From: Benincasa hispida
Taxonomy: Eukaryota; Streptophyta; Magnoliopsida; Cucurbitales; Cucurbitaceae
DNA length: 64,000 nucleotides
Assembly (NCBI RefSeq): GCF_009727055.1
Contig: NW_024064153.1
Span: 862,922-926,921 of the forward strand
Direction: 5' to 3'
Position 1 is the stretch's first letter. Each line of letters starts with the position of its first letter. The notes under the pieces were generated by a model, which saw nothing but the letters and a program-made list of their open reading frames with translations, did no database searches and had not been told where the DNA came from. Positions 8,835 through 24,458 of this stretch are shown here, one piece after another. The translations under genes were made by a program, and so were the position numbers.

Positions 8835-10007
8835 TGTTGGAATGTAGAAACAAGCAACAAAAGAAAAACAGGATCATTAAACATTCTAATTCATTAATTT
8901 TGCTTCAAATTCAGCATGCTCATAAACTAAAAAGAGAGTTTCAACACTAACCTTTGAAGTACCTCTTGAATCACGATCTTCAACTATAATCTCCTTTTCC
9001 TTTAGTTGCAACCACCACAAGGTCTTCCCTACCATTCTTTTGGAGCTTTAGATTGAGTTGCGAGACTCAAAACATGCTTAAATTAGGGAAATTGGAGGTG
9101 AAGAACTGGTTTTTCAGTAGTGTGAAGAACACTTCTTCAAACATTTTTTTTCAGCAAAATTCAACTACTTGCATGCCTAATTTCCACTCAAAAGTAAAGT
9201 TTATATTGCATGACTTTCAAGCAACAAACCTTATGCATGAATTCCAACTCAAGCTAGAGAATTTGAGCTGTAAAATTAGTGGAACCATGAATAAGCTACT
9301 AGATTAAAGAAGTGGGAAAATCCCACTTTGAGAGTTTATCATTTTCTTCATTTTCCATTTAATTTTGAAACTATTAAAAAAATTAAATTCCAATTTTAGT
9401 TTTTAATCTTAAAATTAAAATTGAAATTAATTTTACAAAAATTAATACAAAATTAATTTTTCTAATAAAATTAATATTAATTAATTAAACAATTTAATTA
9501 ATTCTAATTAATTTAATATCAAATATTAAATTAATTCAACACTAATTCCATCATCATGAATCCCTATTCATGGATTTAATAATTAAATCATATTTAATAT
9601 TAACCAATCTCCAATTTATTTTAATTCCAAAATTAAACGTGTAATTATATCACATATAATTACTAATTCCCTTAATTCGTATTTGAACGATTCAAATTGA
9701 CTTATCACGCTATTCTAAAGCTTATTTGTTTGTGAGCTGGTAGGGAGACCTAATGAACCTATAGATCATGGGCTCCAACGATCCGAGATTAATTGACTAA
9801 ACTCTTTATACCAAATTAACCCTTAGTCATTAACTACCGGGTCACTCCACTAAAGCCTGTAGTTGCACTCCCGTGATTGTAGATATATTGTGCCCACTCG
9901 ATATAGCCATGATTAATTAGTTAACCCTTCACAGGTTGTTCGTAATAACGGCTGGGTCAAAAGGTTGTTTTACCCTTGAGATTACCTCTTGTTTCTTAAG
10001 ACCCACT
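8835..10007 (-). mobile_element. solo copia LTR (family B), right-hand LTR part 1
   Basis: The sequence starts TGTTGGAATG at 8835, the complement of an LTR end, and aligns in reverse with the family-B LTR at 10008-11750. It includes the 'cattctaattcattaatttt' zone, the 'cctttgaagtacctcttgaa' zone and the 'agctggtagggagacctaatgaacctatagatc' zone. It is interrupted at 10007 by a complete gag-only element and continues at 17642-18382. The flanks 8830-8834 and 18383-18387 are both CAGAC, a perfect 5-bp target duplication. That marks it as a solo LTR of about 1.9 kb left by recombination of a former full element. Confidence 0.85.
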
Positions 10008-11750
10008 TGTTGGGTTTTATGTCCTAAAACTTGTGGTTTGTAAACATTAGAACTTATTTTGAGAATTCAATAAAGTTGTTGTTGAATATATTGTTTTTTA
10101 GAAATCTAATAAACCTAAGTCCCTTGATTATTATATGAGTACTTGAACTTTATATGGAGACATACAAGTTGATCAGGTTCGAGTAAATAGTCAAAATGAT
10201 CATAGTATATGAATAAGGTTGGGTACCTTATTCTGGTAACACTATTGGATGCGGCCTACTCTGTAGTTGTTACAAAGTGTTGTAAAGCGCTACATACGAA
10301 GTGATCCTAATTCGTGCATGTTGAGACATGAGGAGTGGGGGCGTCCTGTGCAAATGAGTTTTGTGCAAGATCGGACCACAAACTTGTCACCCTTACTTTA
10401 TAACATTGTTTACTGTTTAAGACTGACAATTTCAAAGTGATAACCTAGGTAACTTAACCTTAATCCTGAGCTAACTATGAACTCCTGTTTGTTTGGGATT
10501 ATCCTTTGATCTACAAACGGTGAGAGTAGGCCAATTGTCTCTGCTCAATAAGCTTACCATTTAGGGGATAAGACCGGATGAATAGCTGGGAACATAGGGT
10601 GCAAGGGGGAATTCACTCCTAACCGATTAGGGTTAGTAGAGAGGTTGTTTCCTTCAAGTTTTGATTCTGGGTCTTGACAAAAGGCCTTACCCTCTCATTG
10701 GCATGAGAGGGATTCAATTTGTTGATTGGATCAGAAATCAATTGTTCATTAGAGGATCAGTGGAACTTAAGAAATAAGAGGTAATTTCGGGGATAAAATA
10801 GAGATTCGACTCAGCCGTTATTACGAGCAACCTGTGAAGGGTTAACTTACTAATCATGGTTATATCGAGTGGACATAATATATCTACAGTAATGGGAGTT
10901 TAGCTATGGGTTTTAGTGGAATCACCCATTAGTTAACGAATGGGGCGTTAGATCGGTCTAATGAGTTTAGTCGATTAATCTCGAATCATTGGAGCCCTAT
11001 GATCTGTAGGTCCGCGAGGTCCCCCTACTAGCTCGTAAATGGGTACGCTTTAGGGTAGCTTGAGAAATTAATTTGAAACGTTCAAATTAAACAGAACAAG
11101 AGAATAAATTATTTAAATATGATTAAATATATAAAGATGATTATTGCGAAAAAATTAATTTAAGAAAATTTAATTTTTAAATTAAATGATTTAAAATTCA
11201 TTTTTTGTTAAAAAGGAAAATGAAATTCGTTTGCATGGGTTGCACATAATGGAAAAAGATTTTTTTTCCATCATCATCATCTTATGCTCACACACAAACT
11301 ATGATCTTCTCTACTTTGATTCTCCAAGCATGAGCTGCAAGCCATGCACTCCATCTTTTTTCATGTTCATCTTGAATATATAAAGAAGATTGGATTTGTG
11401 AGAAGCGAGATGAATACAGAATTTTGAGAGAAAAATCGTGGTGAAGAAGAAGCTGTCTTCTTCAACTTGCTGCTGTGAGCTTCCCTTGTTTCTCCACATC
11501 TACAAGCTGTTCTTGAGTCCCACAACTCTGCCTAAAGCTCCAAGAGCATAGTAGGGAAGGCTTTGAGGTGGTTCACGTTGATATCAAGTGAAGGCAGCAG
11601 TTGAACAGATGATTTTCTTGAAGAGTTCTTCAAAGGTATGTTCTGAAAACCCATTTTTATGAACAACATGCTTTAGTTTTTGCGAAAATTAGTGAATTAG
11701 AATGCTTATGGATCCTTGATACTTCTGCTGCATGTTGTTTAACTCTAACA
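10008..11750 (+). repeat. 5' LTR of the gag-only element (family B)
   Basis: It runs from TGTTGGGTTTTATG at 10008 to ...TTTAACTCTAACA at 11750 (1,743 bp). The TG...CA ends are intact and the PBS follows immediately. It is closely similar along its length to 15846-17636 by eye, with scattered substitutions and small length differences. The pair is therefore a real LTR pair and the insertion is fairly recent. Confidence 0.9.
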
Positions 11751-11763: not shown

Positions 11764-14311
11764 CATCTTTTAAGCTTTCAATTCAGTCTAATTTTGGCAA
11801 GGTGGGTGTTTTTCTATGAGATATATGAAACTGTTGTACTACTATGGTTTTTTCTATTTTGGCATTTTAATTCTCTTTAATTTCTCAATTAAATTTATAA
11901 TTGGCCCTTTTTTTATGAAAATTTATGTGTTAGGAAGAGTCTGTAATTTATTTGGAGTCATTAGAGTTGAAATTAAGATGTAATTGAAGAAACAAGCGAA
12001 GGAGGTCGAGCTGCTGTTCCAAAGTTTTCAGCTTCTGATTCAATCGTTGCTGAGGTCCAGTTGCTAAACGATCGTTTAGCTCCAGACGCTACACGATGAG
12101 AAGAAAAGCTATATGGTCGTTTAGTAATATGCGCTGGTCGTTGTGATGTTGAATGCTAAACGATCGTGTACCTGCGGGAGCTAAGCGATGTGTTCATTTG
12201 CTATACGATAACATACAGGATCATTTAGTTTGAATTGTAGGAACTAAACGATTAATTGATTTTGCTAAACGATGGCACTATACGATCGTTTAGCAATGAT
12301 GTGCGCTAAATGATGCAATGAAATGCTACGCGATAGCACTGAGCGTTCGTTTGATCGCGGAGCTAAGCAATCGTGTAGATAAATGCTATACGATGTGATG
12401 ATGTTCTATACGATGGAGCTATGCAATCGTTTAGCTACGGCGGATACTAAACGATGACTTGAACACGTTGGGCGATGGTGTTATTCGATTGTTTAGTACA
12501 TGCGATAGAGCTAAACGATTACACTGTGATGGAACTAAACGATCGTCTAGTCCTATGCGATAGAGCTAAACGATCGTCTAGCTTCCAATGAACACTATGC
12601 AATCGTGTACTTCCTCTCAACTGAAGTGGACGACGCTAGACGATTACCTCCAGGCACTACACGATTGACCTTAGTAGCATATTGAGGTTGGACCAAGAGC
12701 AACCGATTCGACTGGTTTACTCAAGGTTCAATCCAGTTCAGCCTCACATGGTTGTAGTTGGTTCGGTTTAGCAATTGTTGGTCCAGTTCAGACTTGTCCA
12801 GCCCAGTTCAAGTTGTTTTAGGTTCGGTTTGGAGCGGTTTGAGTGGTTCAAAGATGGTTGTGAAGCTATTTGTAATAGTTAGCTATCTTTTTGCTTGTTT
12901 ATGCCAAAACGAAAACCATAACAGTTAATATTTAATTGTTTATGCATGAGATGTATGTGATAATTAAATAAATTCATGTATATGCATACAGTATGCCATG
13001 TAGATTTAAAACCCCACCATAGGAAGCATGAACATGCATTGACAGTATGTTATAATTGTTATGATATATAGTATGCATGTTAGGGTTATGTTTAATATAA
13101 TAGTTATATTAGATACCTTCGTTGTTTTTTGTGGATATTTAGCATGTCTAAATTTTATAAGCCGTTATAAAATCGGTTAGACTTTAAAATCCATAACAAA
13201 GAACAACTGCATGTTCACTTAGGTTAACTGCTTGTTTTAATAGTTAAAATAGGTCGTTAAACTTGTAAAACTAGGGTTACAAACTCAACCGGTATATAAT
13301 CCTGTCGAAGGCTGGGGGTATTTAAGTTNNNNNNNNNNNNNNNNNNNNNNNNNNNNNNNNNNNNNNNNNNNNNNNNNNNNNNNNNNNNNNNNNNNNNNNN
13401 NNNNNNNNNNNNNNNNTTTGACGGTCTACGGAACACCTCCATACCTGGGGATTATAGCCGAATAATTGAGACGTTGACCAATTTTATGAGCATTCATGAG
13501 CGATGCGACGGTAATAAAATGGTTTATCACCTAGACATGTAGGTGAAATCCAATTATAAGAGTATATTTGGATAAACTACTTAGACTTAGGTTGTATGAA
13601 ATTAGCCGTCTAACCTAAGTATAAATATACCCAAACATTAGAACACTTCAGTGGAGAATAAAAGTTATTAGCACTCACGTCTCAAAAGTTTCACACCATG
13701 AGATCCATGCTCGCTTCTTGTTGATTTTTTTTGGATAAACTACTTAGACTTAGGTTGTATGAAGTCGTTCATAGTAAGTGGGTGAAGAAAATGTGTCAAC
13801 ATTCTCCTACGGTCTCCTCCATTAGTCTGAACCATGAGATTCTAATGTTGCGCCTGCTGTCGTTTTTCATGCAGCACTAGTTAGTCGTTAACCGCGATGA
13901 TCCCTATAGAGGGTTGTAACATAAGATCCGGAACAACCTAGGTTTCAGTAAAATGAATAAGATCTTATAGTTTCGTTTTGGGTATTTTCTTCTATTTCGA
14001 AGGCATGCTCATACCGTTCTGTAAGATTTGAAACTGGCAGGTCTACACTTACAAGACTTACTAAGTGTTAGTAATAATCTTGTCCGAAAATGATAATTAA
14101 ATGACTATCAGAATATGAGTTATTCTGGAGATAGTATTTGGTCAAGAACTGTCTTGTTTTTGTGAAGGAATTCTTGATTGCCCCATGGTAGCATTTGTTC
14201 TAAATCACTTAAGTATCGTTGCAAAAAATAATGATTATAGGTACATTATCACTTTGCTAAAATTTGATTGGATTTTGCAATATGCTTATAAAATTTGTTT
14301 ATAATTTCAGA
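11764..14311 (+). mobile_element. leader of the gag-only element, with palindrome array
   Basis: About 2.5 kb lies between PBS and gag with no protein signal. Positions 12060-12665 hold a dense array of the CGATCG-centred word, including a perfect 16-bp palindrome CTAAACGATCGTTTAG at 12064-12079. Positions 12950-13120 carry the GCATGC / ttataat leader motifs seen in other copia leaders. An 88-base N gap lies at 13329-13416. A 34-base direct repeat occurs at 13567-13600 and 13730-13763. Confidence 0.7.
13329..13416. other. assembly gap (88 N)
   Basis: There are 88 consecutive undetermined bases inside the leader of the gag-only element. The true length of the missing sequence is unknown. Confidence 0.99.
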
Positions 14312-15215
14312 ATGACGAGTTCTATTATATATTGTTGGCTTCAAACAAACTGATTGGGGACAATTATGTAAACTGGAAATCAAATTTGAATACAATACTC
14401 ACGATAAACGATTTGAGATTTGTCTTAACGGAGGAATGTCCTCCCATTCCTAGCTCAAATACCAACCAAACTATTCGGGAAGCGTTTGATAAATGGATCA
14501 GAGCTAATGATAAAGCCCGTGCTTATATCCTCACCAGCCTGTCTGACATTTTGGCAAAAAAACACGAGGGTATGAACACTGCCAAAGAGATTATGGAATC
14601 TTTAATAGGGATGTTTGGACAGCCGTCCTTTACCCTAAGGCATGATGCTATCAAATATGTTTACAATAGTCACATGAAAGAGGGGACCAATGTTCGTGAA
14701 CATGTCCTGGACATAATGGTCCACTTTAATGTGGCTAAAGTGAACGGTACTGTGATGGATGAGAGAAGTTAAGTTGGCTTTATTCTAGAATCTCTTCGGA
14801 AGACATTAATGATGCTGTTCGTCAATGGTGCTATGAGTTTTCTGTAATTTTGTACCAATGCCTTGATGAATAAAATTGAATACAACTTGACAACTCTGCT
14901 TAATGAGTTGCAGGCATTTCAGACCATGTTGAGAACTAAAGGTTTGGAACCAATACCAGAAGTAAATGTTGCTTCTACTGAAAAGAGAGGAATGTCCTCC
15001 AAGCCTGAAGTTGCCTTGTCTTCGTAAACTAAGAGTATTCTAGCGAAGAAAGACAAAGGGAAAGGGAAAAAGCTTGATGGTAAGAAGAGCAAGAAAACCG
15101 CTGCAGAGAAAGGGAAATGTTTCCACTGCAATGAGCTAGGGCACTGGAAAAGAAATTTCCCTAAATATCTTGCAGAGAAGAGAGCAGAGAAAGGCAAACA
15201 GGCTACTTAGATCTT
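14312..15215 (+). pseudogene. copia-type Gag, gag-only element, broken
   Basis: The ATG at 14312 is the likely original start (MTSSII). It is out of frame with the long reading from 14332, which fits a 1-bp change near 14330. The open stretch to 14772 carries the Ty1/copia gag pattern: LIGDNYVNWKSNL, a region rich in KARAYILTSLSDIL, and EGTNVREHVLDIMVHFN. A stop at 14770 ends it. Remnants continue in other frames: NGALMNKIEYNLTTLLNELQ-like text near 14870-14920, a basic Lys-rich tract, and a CCHC zinc knuckle at about 15118-15160. That knuckle reads CFHC....H but has Phe where the last Cys belongs. Gag would form the particle and bind RNA. Stops and the altered knuckle indicate it is not functional as assembled. 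Confidence 0.85.
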
Positions 15216-15845: not shown

Positions 15846-17636
15846 TGTTGGGTTTTATGTCCTAAAACTCGTGGTTTGTAAACATTAGAACTTATTCTGA
15901 GAATTCAATAAAGTTGTTGTTGAATATATTGTTTTTTAGAAATCCAATAAACCTAAGTCCTTTGACTATTATATGAGTACTTGAACTTTATGTGGAGACA
16001 TATAAGTGGATCGGGTTCAAGTAAATAGTCAAAATGATCAATAGTATATGAATAAGGTTGGGTACCTTATTCTGGTAACACTATTGGATGCGGCCTACTC
16101 TGTAGTTGTTACAAAGTGTTGTAAAACACTACATACGAAGTGATTCTAATTTGTGCATGTTGAGACATGAGGAGTGAGGGTGTCCTGTGCAAATGAGTTT
16201 TGTGCAAGATCGGATCACGAAACTTGTCACTCTTACTTTATAACGCTGTTTACTGTTTAAGACTGACGATTTCAAAGCGATGACCTAGGTAACTTAACCT
16301 TAATCCTGGGCTAACTATGAACTCCTGTTTGTTCGGGATTATCCTTTGATCTACAAACGGTGAGAGTAGACCAATTGTCTCTGCTCAATAAACTTACCAC
16401 TTTGGGGATAAGACTAGATGAATAACTGGGAACATAGGGTGCAAGAGGGAATTCACTCCTAACCGATTAGGGTTAGTAGAGAGGTTATTCCCTTCAAGTA
16501 TTGATTCTGGGTCTTGAACAAGAGGCCTCACCCTCTCATTGGCTTGAGAGGGATTCGATTTGTTGATTGGATCACAAATCAATTGTTCATTAGGGGATCA
16601 GTGGAACTTAAGGAACAAGAGGTAATTTCGAGGATAAAACAGAGATTCGACCCATTAGTTAACGAATGGGGGTTAGATCATGGTTATATTGAGTGGACAT
16701 AATATATCTACAATGATGGGAGTTCAGCTATGGGGTTTAGTGCAATCACCCATTAGTTAACGAATGGGGGTTAGATCGGTCTAATGAGTTTAGCCGATTA
16801 ATCTCGGATCGTTCTCTTATACACATCTAGATGTGTATAAGAGACAGATCTGTAGGTCCGCGAGGTCCCCCTACTAACTCGTAAATGGGTACTCTTTACG
16901 ATAGCTTGACAAATTAATTTGAAACGTTCAAATTAAATGGAATAAGAGAATAAATATTTAAATATGATTTAAATATATAAAGATGATTATTGTGCAAAAA
17001 TTAATTTAATATTTGATATTAAATTAATTTATGAAATTAATTTAAGAGAATCCATTTTTAAATTAAAATGATTTAAAATTCATTTTTTGTTTTAAAAAGG
17101 AAAATGGAAATTCGTTTGCATGGGTTGCACATAATGGAAAAAGAGTTTTTTCCACTATCATCATCTTTATGCTCACACACAAACCATGATCTTCTCTACC
17201 TTGATTCTCCAAGCATGAGCTGCAAGCCATGCACTCCATCTCTTTGCATGTTCATTTTGATATATAAAGAAGATTGGATTTGTTGGAGAAGTAGAGATGA
17301 ATACAAAATTTTGAGAGAAAAATCATGGTGAAGAAGAAGCTGCTTCTTCAACTTACTACTGTGAGCTTCCCTTGTTTCTCTACATTTACAAGCTGTTCTT
17401 GAGCCCCACAACCTTTCCTAAAGCTCCAAAAGCATAGTAGGGAAGGCTTTGAGGTGGTTCACATTGATATCAAGTGAAGACAACAGTTGAACAGACGATT
17501 TTCTTGAAGAGTTCTTCAAAGGTATGTTCTGAAAATCCATTTTTATGAATAACATACTTTAGTTTTTGCCAAAATTAGTGAATTAGAATGCTTATGGATC
17601 CTTGATACTTCTGCTGCATGTTATTTAACTCTAACA
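15846..17636 (+). repeat. 3' LTR of the gag-only element (family B)
   Basis: It starts TGTTGGGTTTTATG and ends ...CTCTAACA. It aligns with the 5' LTR at 10008-11750. In place of about 12 bases of the 5' LTR it carries a 35-base transposase adapter sequence at 16813-16847. Positions 16648-16678 also show a local rearrangement, because 'cccattagttaacgaatgggggttag' occurs twice within about 100 bases. Confidence 0.88.
16813..16847. other. Nextera-type Tn5 mosaic-end junction adapter (artefact)
   Basis: Positions 16829-16847 are exactly AGATGTGTATAAGAGACAG, the 19-base Tn5 mosaic end used in tagmentation libraries. Positions 16813-16828 are the reverse complement of its first 16 bases, so the two form the inverted junction found in mate-pair libraries. 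The paralogous LTR at 10008-11750 has about 12 ordinary bases here. This is library sequence left in the assembly, not plant DNA. Confidence 0.95.
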
Positions 17637-17641
17637 TCACT

Positions 17642-18382
17642 GATTCTCTAATGAACAATTGTTTTGTGATCCGATCATTAAACCGAGTACCTCTCGGGCC
17701 AATGAAAGGGTAGAGCCCCTTGTTCAAGATCCGGAGTCAGCACTTAAAGGAACTTTTCTACTATCCCTGATAGCAGGTAGGAGTAAATTCCATCTTACAC
17801 CCTATGTCCTCAGTTATCTACTCGACGCTGTTGAGCTAACCCTCACCTATGAAAATTTAAGGATAATCCTGAATAAACAGGAGTTCATAGTTAACTTAGG
17901 ATTAAGGTCAAGTTACCTAGGTCATCGTTTTGAAATAGTCAGTCTTAAATAGTAAACAACATTATAAAGTAAGAGTGACTTATTTCTTGGTCCGATCTTG
18001 CACAAACTCATTGCACATGACGCCCCCACTCCTCATGTCACTACATGTACGAATTAGGATCACTTCGTCTGTAGCACTTCACAACTCTTTGTAACAACTA
18101 TAGAGTGGGCCTCATCTGACAGTGTTATCAGAATAAGGCATCCAACCTTATTTAGATACTATAGATCATCTTGACTATTTACTCGAACCTGATTGACTCT
18201 TATGTCTCCATATAAAGTTCAAGTATTCATGTAATAATCATGAATCTTTTAGTTTATTGGATTTATTTTTTAAATGAAATAAGCAATTCATATATTTTAT
18301 ATAACTTTATTGAACTTTATTGAATTTATCAGAATAAGTTTATTATTTACAAACCACGAGTTTTAGGACATAAAACCCAACA
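17642..18382 (-). mobile_element. solo copia LTR (family B), part 2
   Basis: Continuation of the solo LTR that begins at 8835. It reads on from the insertion point with 'gattctctaatgaacaattg' and ends at 18382 with ...ACCCAACA, the complement of the TGTTGGGT start. CAGAC follows at 18383-18387, matching the left flank. Confidence 0.85.
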
Positions 18383-22311: not shown

Positions 22312-24458
22312 TGTTGGGGATAATGCCCTAAACTCTCGTTGGGTTCTGTAGTTTGTAAACACTGTATTGAACAAACGCTTGCGATATAACAATATATGAT
22401 TTTTTTTCACTGTTGTCTATGAAACATGGGATGTTTTAATTGCTTTACCACAAACCAATAAACTAAAATCCCTGGTTGTCATTGTAACTTAAGCATGTAT
22501 GTGGAGACATACAGGTGGATCATGCCTTAAGTGATAACCAAAATGATCTGTAGTATATGGATAAATGAGGGAAACCTTATCCTGGTGAGACTATGGATGC
22601 GACCCGTTTTGTAAATTATTACAAGTGTTGTGACGTACTACAGATGGTTTGATCCTGATCATTCATGTGAAGACATGTGAGTGGAGGCATCCTATACAAA
22701 GGAGTTTGTATAAGACCGAACCACGAAGTGTTATAGTCTCGTTATATAACGTCGTGCATGACAAAGACTTCACTTCACTAGGATGACCATAGGTAACATG
22801 ACCTTAATCCTGAATGAGTTGGGAACTCTTGTTTTTAAGGGCGGTCCTTTGATTTGCATGGGTGAGAGTGGCCAGATTGTCGACTCAAACCTACCACTTT
22901 GGGAATTTTTCTGATTTGGGAGCTGGGAACTCAACTACACAAGATGGAATTCACTCCTTCCTCGAAATAGGGGTAAGTAGATAGATTGCTTCCTTAAGGG
23001 TTGATTCCGGGTCTTGAACATAGTGACCATAACCTCTCNGGAACTCAACTACACAAGATGGAATTCACTCCTTCCTCGAAATAGGGGTAAGTAGATAGAT
23101 TGCTTCCTTAAGGGCTGATTTCGAGGCTTGAACGATGAGGCGTCACACACCTTCTCATGGCCTGAGAGGTGTCCACACATAGTAGGACTATGTTATATTG
23201 TTCATTAGAGGGGTCGGTGGTACTTAAGGACTTAGATGTAACTATAAGCGCAAAACGGTAAATTGGCATAGTTGTACTTACGAGCATCTGTGAAGGGTTA
23301 TCGTACTGTTGACTGGTTATATCCGATGGACACAGAAATATATCTGTGATGAGAAGAATGCTACTATCAGTCTTTAGTGGAGTGCCTAGTAGTTAACGGA
23401 TGGTGGATCGTAGCTAAAGAGTTTAGTCAGCTATTCATGTATCATTATAGCTTCAAGCCACAGGTTCATAAGGTCCCCTTAGTAACTCAATGGATTCAAG
23501 TTGAGAATCAGTTTTTGGGTCAGTTTGAAATGTTCAAATTGACAAGAGGGAGTCTGATTATATATGATGTGATTAAACTGGTCAATTATATATGATATAG
23601 TTGACATGATGTATGAGATACACTAATTGGAGGAAAATGATATAAATATGATTTATATCTAGTGGAGGAGAAAAAGACTATGGTTTAAATGTTGCATATG
23701 CTGTGATATTAAAATTATAGATTATAAATATAATATGATAAGTTAGTTATTATATTTATTTATAATTAAACAATTATGAGATAATTGTTGGTGGTTTTCT
23801 CCATAACTGTGCGTGAAAGTGGGAGGTTGCATTCAATTTTCATAACTGAAGGATAAAATGGAATTAGTTTTCATTTTTGCAAGAGAATCAGATAATCGCA
23901 TCTCGATTGTACACTGTCTATCGTTTAGCTAACGAGAGCCTACACGACAGCTTAAGCTTTCCTAAACGATCGTGTACACGCGCAGTTTCCTAAACGATCT
24001 TGTAGCTTTTATTAAGCTATCACGCGCGAGAGCCAGATTACCTAAACGATCGTCTAAACAATCAACCTAATTTTTCTAAACGATCCTATACCTTTTATTA
24101 AACGATCAAGCACCACTCTGAGAATACCAAAGTCACTGAGTGGTGGTGTCCTAGTTGCTGCTTATTCATGGAGATGTCTGTTCGTTTGCTGAGCGACAAT
24201 GAGATTTGGTAGATGATTGGCTTAGCGTTGCAGTGACAGCAAAAGGTGTTGTTCTTGACGTGAGCGAGAGAAAGATAAAAGAAGAGTTCTTCAAAGGTGA
24301 GTCTCTCGGTCTTTTGTATTTATTATTAATAGCATGTCGTAATTTGTTCTGAAATGCTTAACTACTGTGTATGTTTGTGAATGCTTGTATTTCTATCACA
24401 ATAAACTTGGAATGATCTTGCTTCCGCTCATAGGTACTCTTTGATAAGAGATCCTTCA
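22312..24458 (+). mobile_element. solo copia LTR (family A) inside pol
   Basis: It runs from TGTTGGGGATAATGCCC to ...GAGATCCTTCA, the same termini as the family-A LTR at 52480-54534. The flanks are CAACA (22307-22311) and CAATA (24459-24463), a 4/5 target duplication, and minus-strand RT reading resumes on both sides at the YVDD region. No internal domain is present, so it is a solo LTR of 2,147 bp as assembled. That length includes an apparent local duplication around an N at 23039. The CGATCG-word array is at about 23920-24110. Confidence 0.88.

Follow-up and report, generated by a model that had tools for sequence, protein, structure and literature searches.

The 35 bases at positions 16813–16847 of the window (the whole 64,000-nucleotide stretch of DNA analysed here) are, with a probability of about 0.93, the remnant of a 38-base junction adapter that derives from a mate-pair library of the tagmentation (Nextera) type and was left behind where the assembly was closed locally. 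The sequence is real in the file and very probably absent from the plant itself. It lies within the 3' LTR of an element which, judged from its gag fragment, is of copia type, and which splits an older inverted LTR of the same family. The relevant features are as follows:

15846..17636, plus strand: 3' LTR containing the adapter (LTR alignment)
16813..16828, minus strand: left adapter arm, of which the inner 16 of 19 bases are present; T16813 is possibly genomic
16829..16847, plus strand: right arm, complete 19-base Tn5 mosaic end; G16847 is possibly genomic too
10008..11750, plus strand: 5' (sister) LTR, adapter-free; in the 3' LTR the adapter takes the place of 10990–11001
14305..14769, plus strand: copia-type gag fragment of the element (Pfam PF14223)
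10003..10007, plus strand: left target site duplication, CCACT
17637..17641, plus strand: right target site duplication, TCACT (4 of 5 bases matching)
9681..10007, minus strand: one half of the older inverted LTR that received the element, 79.3% to 5' LTR 10759–11087
17638..18382, minus strand: the other half of the same older inverted LTR, 76.6% to 5' LTR 10008–10762

Read from left to right, the window has GGATCGT, then TCTCTTATACACATCT, then AGATGTGTATAAGAGACAG, then the flank ATCTGTAGG. The first arm, TCTCTTATACACATCT, is the reverse-complemented Tn5 mosaic end without its outer three bases, so that the inner 16 of 19 remain (2 mismatches to the mosaic end when it is scored over the full 19 places), and the second is a complete mosaic end, matching at 19 of 19 bases. 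At up to 3 mismatches these two arms are the only mosaic-end matches in the window, compared to an average of 0.01 in 100 shuffles. The initial annotation had described a complete mosaic end preceded by its inverted copy, which is accurate for the former, while the latter retains just 16 of its 19 bases. In an ordinary Nextera paired-end adapter the mosaic end follows an S5 or S7 primer tail, and no such tail is present in the window at up to 2 mismatches; here the mosaic end follows its own reverse complement, which is the arrangement of the 38-base junction adapter, over 35 of 38 bases in the window and over all 38 elsewhere in the assembly.

The sister LTR reads TGGAGCCCTATG at the corresponding place, 10990–11001, and the adapter has therefore replaced 10–12 bases (the outermost T and G being ambiguous), with a net gain of approximately 23. 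The earlier estimate placed about 12 replaced bases near 10991–11010; the stretch ends at 11001. We aligned 12 of 15 BLAST rows (the 3' LTR and 11 others), leaving out three that spanned fewer than 120 query bases; none of the 11 other family copies from the window, the sister LTR included, contains the adapter, and all retain a related stretch at this place. Ten further related LTR copies are scattered through the window between 5109 and 61599, in both orientations and in some cases nested. A run of 88 Ns also lies within the same element (13329–13416), and there is a lone N at 23039; both are probably scaffold gaps.

The window corresponds to C614:862922-926921 of an assembly of 912,946,352 bp in 1,791 contigs, which is probably the wax gourd (Benincasa hispida) B227 reference, reported at 912.95 Mb (PMC9905507). 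A search of this assembly for the 38-base adapter, proposed as a check in the initial annotation, returned 9,991 occurrences of the complete 38-mer, or approximately one per 91 kb, and none of the reversed control. The mosaic end was found 11,032 times in forward and 11,021 times in reverse orientation at up to 1 mismatch (reversed control 1 and 0, respectively), while 25 bases of the TruSeq adapter had 0 matches in the assembly at the same threshold. Together with the Tn5-like flanks described below, these counts bear out the original identification of a Nextera mate-pair junction adapter inside an assembled LTR. As described in the wax gourd paper (PMC6856369), the B227 contigs were built with ALLPATHS-LG from paired-end reads, scaffolding relied on mate-pair reads from five libraries (insert sizes 2 and 8 kb), and PBJelly served to fill gaps from PacBio reads. 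The libraries are described there as following the 'Illumina standard protocol', with Nextera unnamed; the words adapter, contamination and Nextera are absent from the main text of that paper, as are adapter, adaptor, Nextera and contamina from the main text of PMC9905507.

For a view of how other adapter sites were closed, we used 40 stretches of the same genome, these being the first-listed mosaic-end places, all from the initial 5.6 Mb of contig C1, and thus a non-random sample of the roughly 10,000 sites. They yielded 48 palindromic sites, 42 of them complete, with two single-arm sites set aside. At 13 of the 48, a stretch of 10–296 nt occurs as a direct repeat on either side of the adapter, compared to none among 1,860 shuffled flank pairs; a single tandem array (L153) accounts for three of these sites. 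Given these direct repeats, the flanks at about a quarter of the sampled sites seem to belong side by side, the closure having missed their overlap, although some of these cases could instead reflect a native tandem repeat. At the remaining 35 sites no abutting overlap was seen, and collinearity there is not addressed by overlap. A looser test (a shared word of at least 16 within 400-nt flanks) added eight sites with a control of 64/1,860, and was not used. Among loci from prokaryote and viral contigs, overlaps of at least 8 nt were present at 27 of 151 sites (control 3 of 7,472 pairs), where the 151 sites are those of loci L001–L128 with 100 bases required on each side; another count of the adapter sites, with slightly different duplicate removal, gave 162. 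The site in the window errs slightly in the other direction, with about 12 bases lost. In the L153 array (C1:2861251-2861789), four complete adapters are spaced at exactly 167 bases, as if a closure had circled a loop.

A more serious consequence would be the joining of distant DNA. In a read, a junction adapter does exactly this, linking the ends of one circularised fragment that lie kilobases apart, and the 2 and 8 kb inserts of the B227 mate-pair libraries (PMC6856369) would be compatible with such a join here, as would the absence of abutting overlap at 35 of the 48 sampled sites. The left part of the 3' LTR could, for example, have been joined to the right part of the 5' LTR through a circle of about 5.8 kb, or to another copy. 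However, with a circle to the 5' LTR the right flank should be almost identical to that LTR, whereas only 150 of 160 bases agree with it at 11003–11163, and the 5.8-kb circle between the two LTRs is rejected on these grounds. Both LTRs align in register on either side of the adapter, with just the 10–12 bases missing, and divergence from the sister LTR is similar on the two sides (left, 55 substitutions in 927 columns; right, 39 in 744; Fisher p 0.59). The sequences bordering the element on its two sides also fit together, in the target duplication as in the host-LTR halves: the halves match 5' LTR 10759–11087 and 10008–10762, and therefore abut at the insertion point. These alignments all fit a collinear locus in which the flanks of the adapter are not kilobases apart, except that a short patch from another family copy at the adapter site is possible. 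We therefore consider a chimeric join improbable, and the warning in the initial annotation that two non-adjacent pieces might have been linked is not sustained. Fold-back assembly through the palindrome was also rejected, as fold-backs were found at 0 of the 48 sampled sites from this genome (control 1/1,860) and 0 of the 151 sites in the contig collections (control 0/7,472).

The adapter letters alone are no proof of tagmentation, since PMC7357533 describes a protocol in which the same 38-mer serves as a ring adapter and is ligated to DNA sheared by ultrasound. A library of mechanically sheared DNA prepared in this way would account for the sequence itself, and the right flank of the window's own adapter is a poor match to the Tn5 consensus, fitting at 2 of 7 specified positions (the left flank is cut). 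Sheared ends should however lack position-specific base preference, and this is what the sampled flanks display. Among 79 flanks of complete adapters on C1 (those sharing their first 20 bases being entered once), we found G at +1 in 35 (uncorrected p 6e-6), a pyrimidine at +4 in 63 (uncorrected p 1.6e-6), A or T at +5 in 65 (uncorrected p 4.5e-5), A or G at +6 in 62 (uncorrected p 1.6e-5) and C at +9 in 30 (uncorrected p 5.5e-5). These agree with the native Tn5 target preference AGNTYWRANCT, as given in PMC3046479, at five of the seven positions that it specifies; neither T at +3 nor A at +7 is enriched in the 79 flanks (p 0.14 and 0.46). Position +8, where the Tn5 consensus is N, is A-rich (38/79). 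The same tendency at +1, +4, +5, +6 and +9 is present in 258 flanks from prokaryote assemblies. The signature speaks for tagmentation, and the sheared-DNA alternative, which we regard as even less probable than a chimeric join, is rejected for the sampled adapters of this assembly. A genuine insertion in the plant, whether of a natural Tn5/IS50 relative or of a native palindrome, is hardly credible and is likewise rejected, as it has nothing in its favour beyond presence in the assembly, and must contend with 9,991 copies of the 38-mer, an identical 32-base core in contigs of unrelated bacteria and the 38-mer in five plasmid records, the absence of a 9-bp target duplication from the flanks of 16813–16847, and the description of the mosaic end in PMC3046479 as hyperactive and derived from the ends of natural Tn5.

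We propose that the adapter remnant arose as follows. Tn5 adds a mosaic end to both ends of each DNA fragment, and circularisation joins these ends into a palindrome, such that reads across the junction consist of genomic DNA, adapter and genomic DNA. Incompletely trimmed junction reads may then have entered contigs, and a short gap within the 3' LTR would have been closed locally with adapter-bearing sequence, at the cost of about 12 true bases and three adapter bases. Entry was presumably by contig or gap closure, with the program responsible likewise a matter of conjecture, and the self-reverse-complementary adapter perhaps helped, as two contig ends that run into it would overlap. According to PMC4348652, ALLPATHS-LG draws on jumping reads when filling voids in its graph, which is a plausible route of entry. 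The wax gourd paper (PMC6856369) mentions mate-pair reads for scaffolding alone, and the route is a guess because the B227 workflow as described there does not by itself explain an adapter inside contigs.

The effect on the element is slight. Using K2P distances and a rate of 4.5e-9, with formula and rate taken from the wax gourd paper (PMC6856369) and the alignment made here, the element has an estimated age of 7.15 My with the adapter columns kept and 6.93 My with them removed; with this change, and a net length gain of about 23 bp, age and length are little affected by the adapter. The caution in the initial annotation that both were suspect is thus true only weakly. A larger shift, to 6.57 My, results when positions 16650–16679 are also removed. 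This segment of the 3' LTR is an exact 30-base copy of 16748–16777 and stands where the sister LTR has approximately 47 bases, 17 more than here; its edges share short bases (ACCCA, as in some other copies, and ATC), and the 47-base form across this place has one occurrence genome-wide at up to 3 mismatches. It has the look of a templated insertion made during break repair, or else of a second stitch in the assembly.

With some 10,000 junction adapters in the assembly, and closures that either duplicate DNA (13/48 sampled sites) or drop it (about 12 bases in the window), we think it probable that there is systematic error in gene models, LTR counts and comparisons of small indels, of which a word search found no mention in the main texts of PMC6856369 and PMC9905507. 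This is a data-quality warning rather than a biological result: adapter sites need to be masked before gene models, LTR dates or short indels are interpreted. The combination of the palindrome and the Tn5 signature of its flanks offers a simple screen for the same fault in other assemblies.

Similar remnants are present in other sequence collections. Exact copies of the 32-base core occur in prokaryote contigs (at least 120 stretches) and in viral contigs (eight stretches), and the 38-mer occurs in five of 72,556 plasmid records, while a phage collection gave no adapter match. Some genomes carry many leftover adapter sites, e.g. Enterococcus sp. 10A9_DIV0425 and Ideonella sp. MAG2. The 38-mer of the sheared-DNA ring-adapter protocol (PMC7357533) is identical; however, as described there, Tn5 has no part in that step and no signature would be expected, whereas the sampled flanks in the wax gourd assembly are Tn5-like. 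The closest counterpart is provided by untrimmed Nextera mate-pair adapters in draft assemblies, which have the same palindrome of two mosaic ends as the window. The present case differs from the prokaryote, viral and plasmid examples in that the assembly is of a plant, spans 913 Mb and contains 9,991 complete copies, and in the left arm of the adapter in the window, which is three bases shorter.
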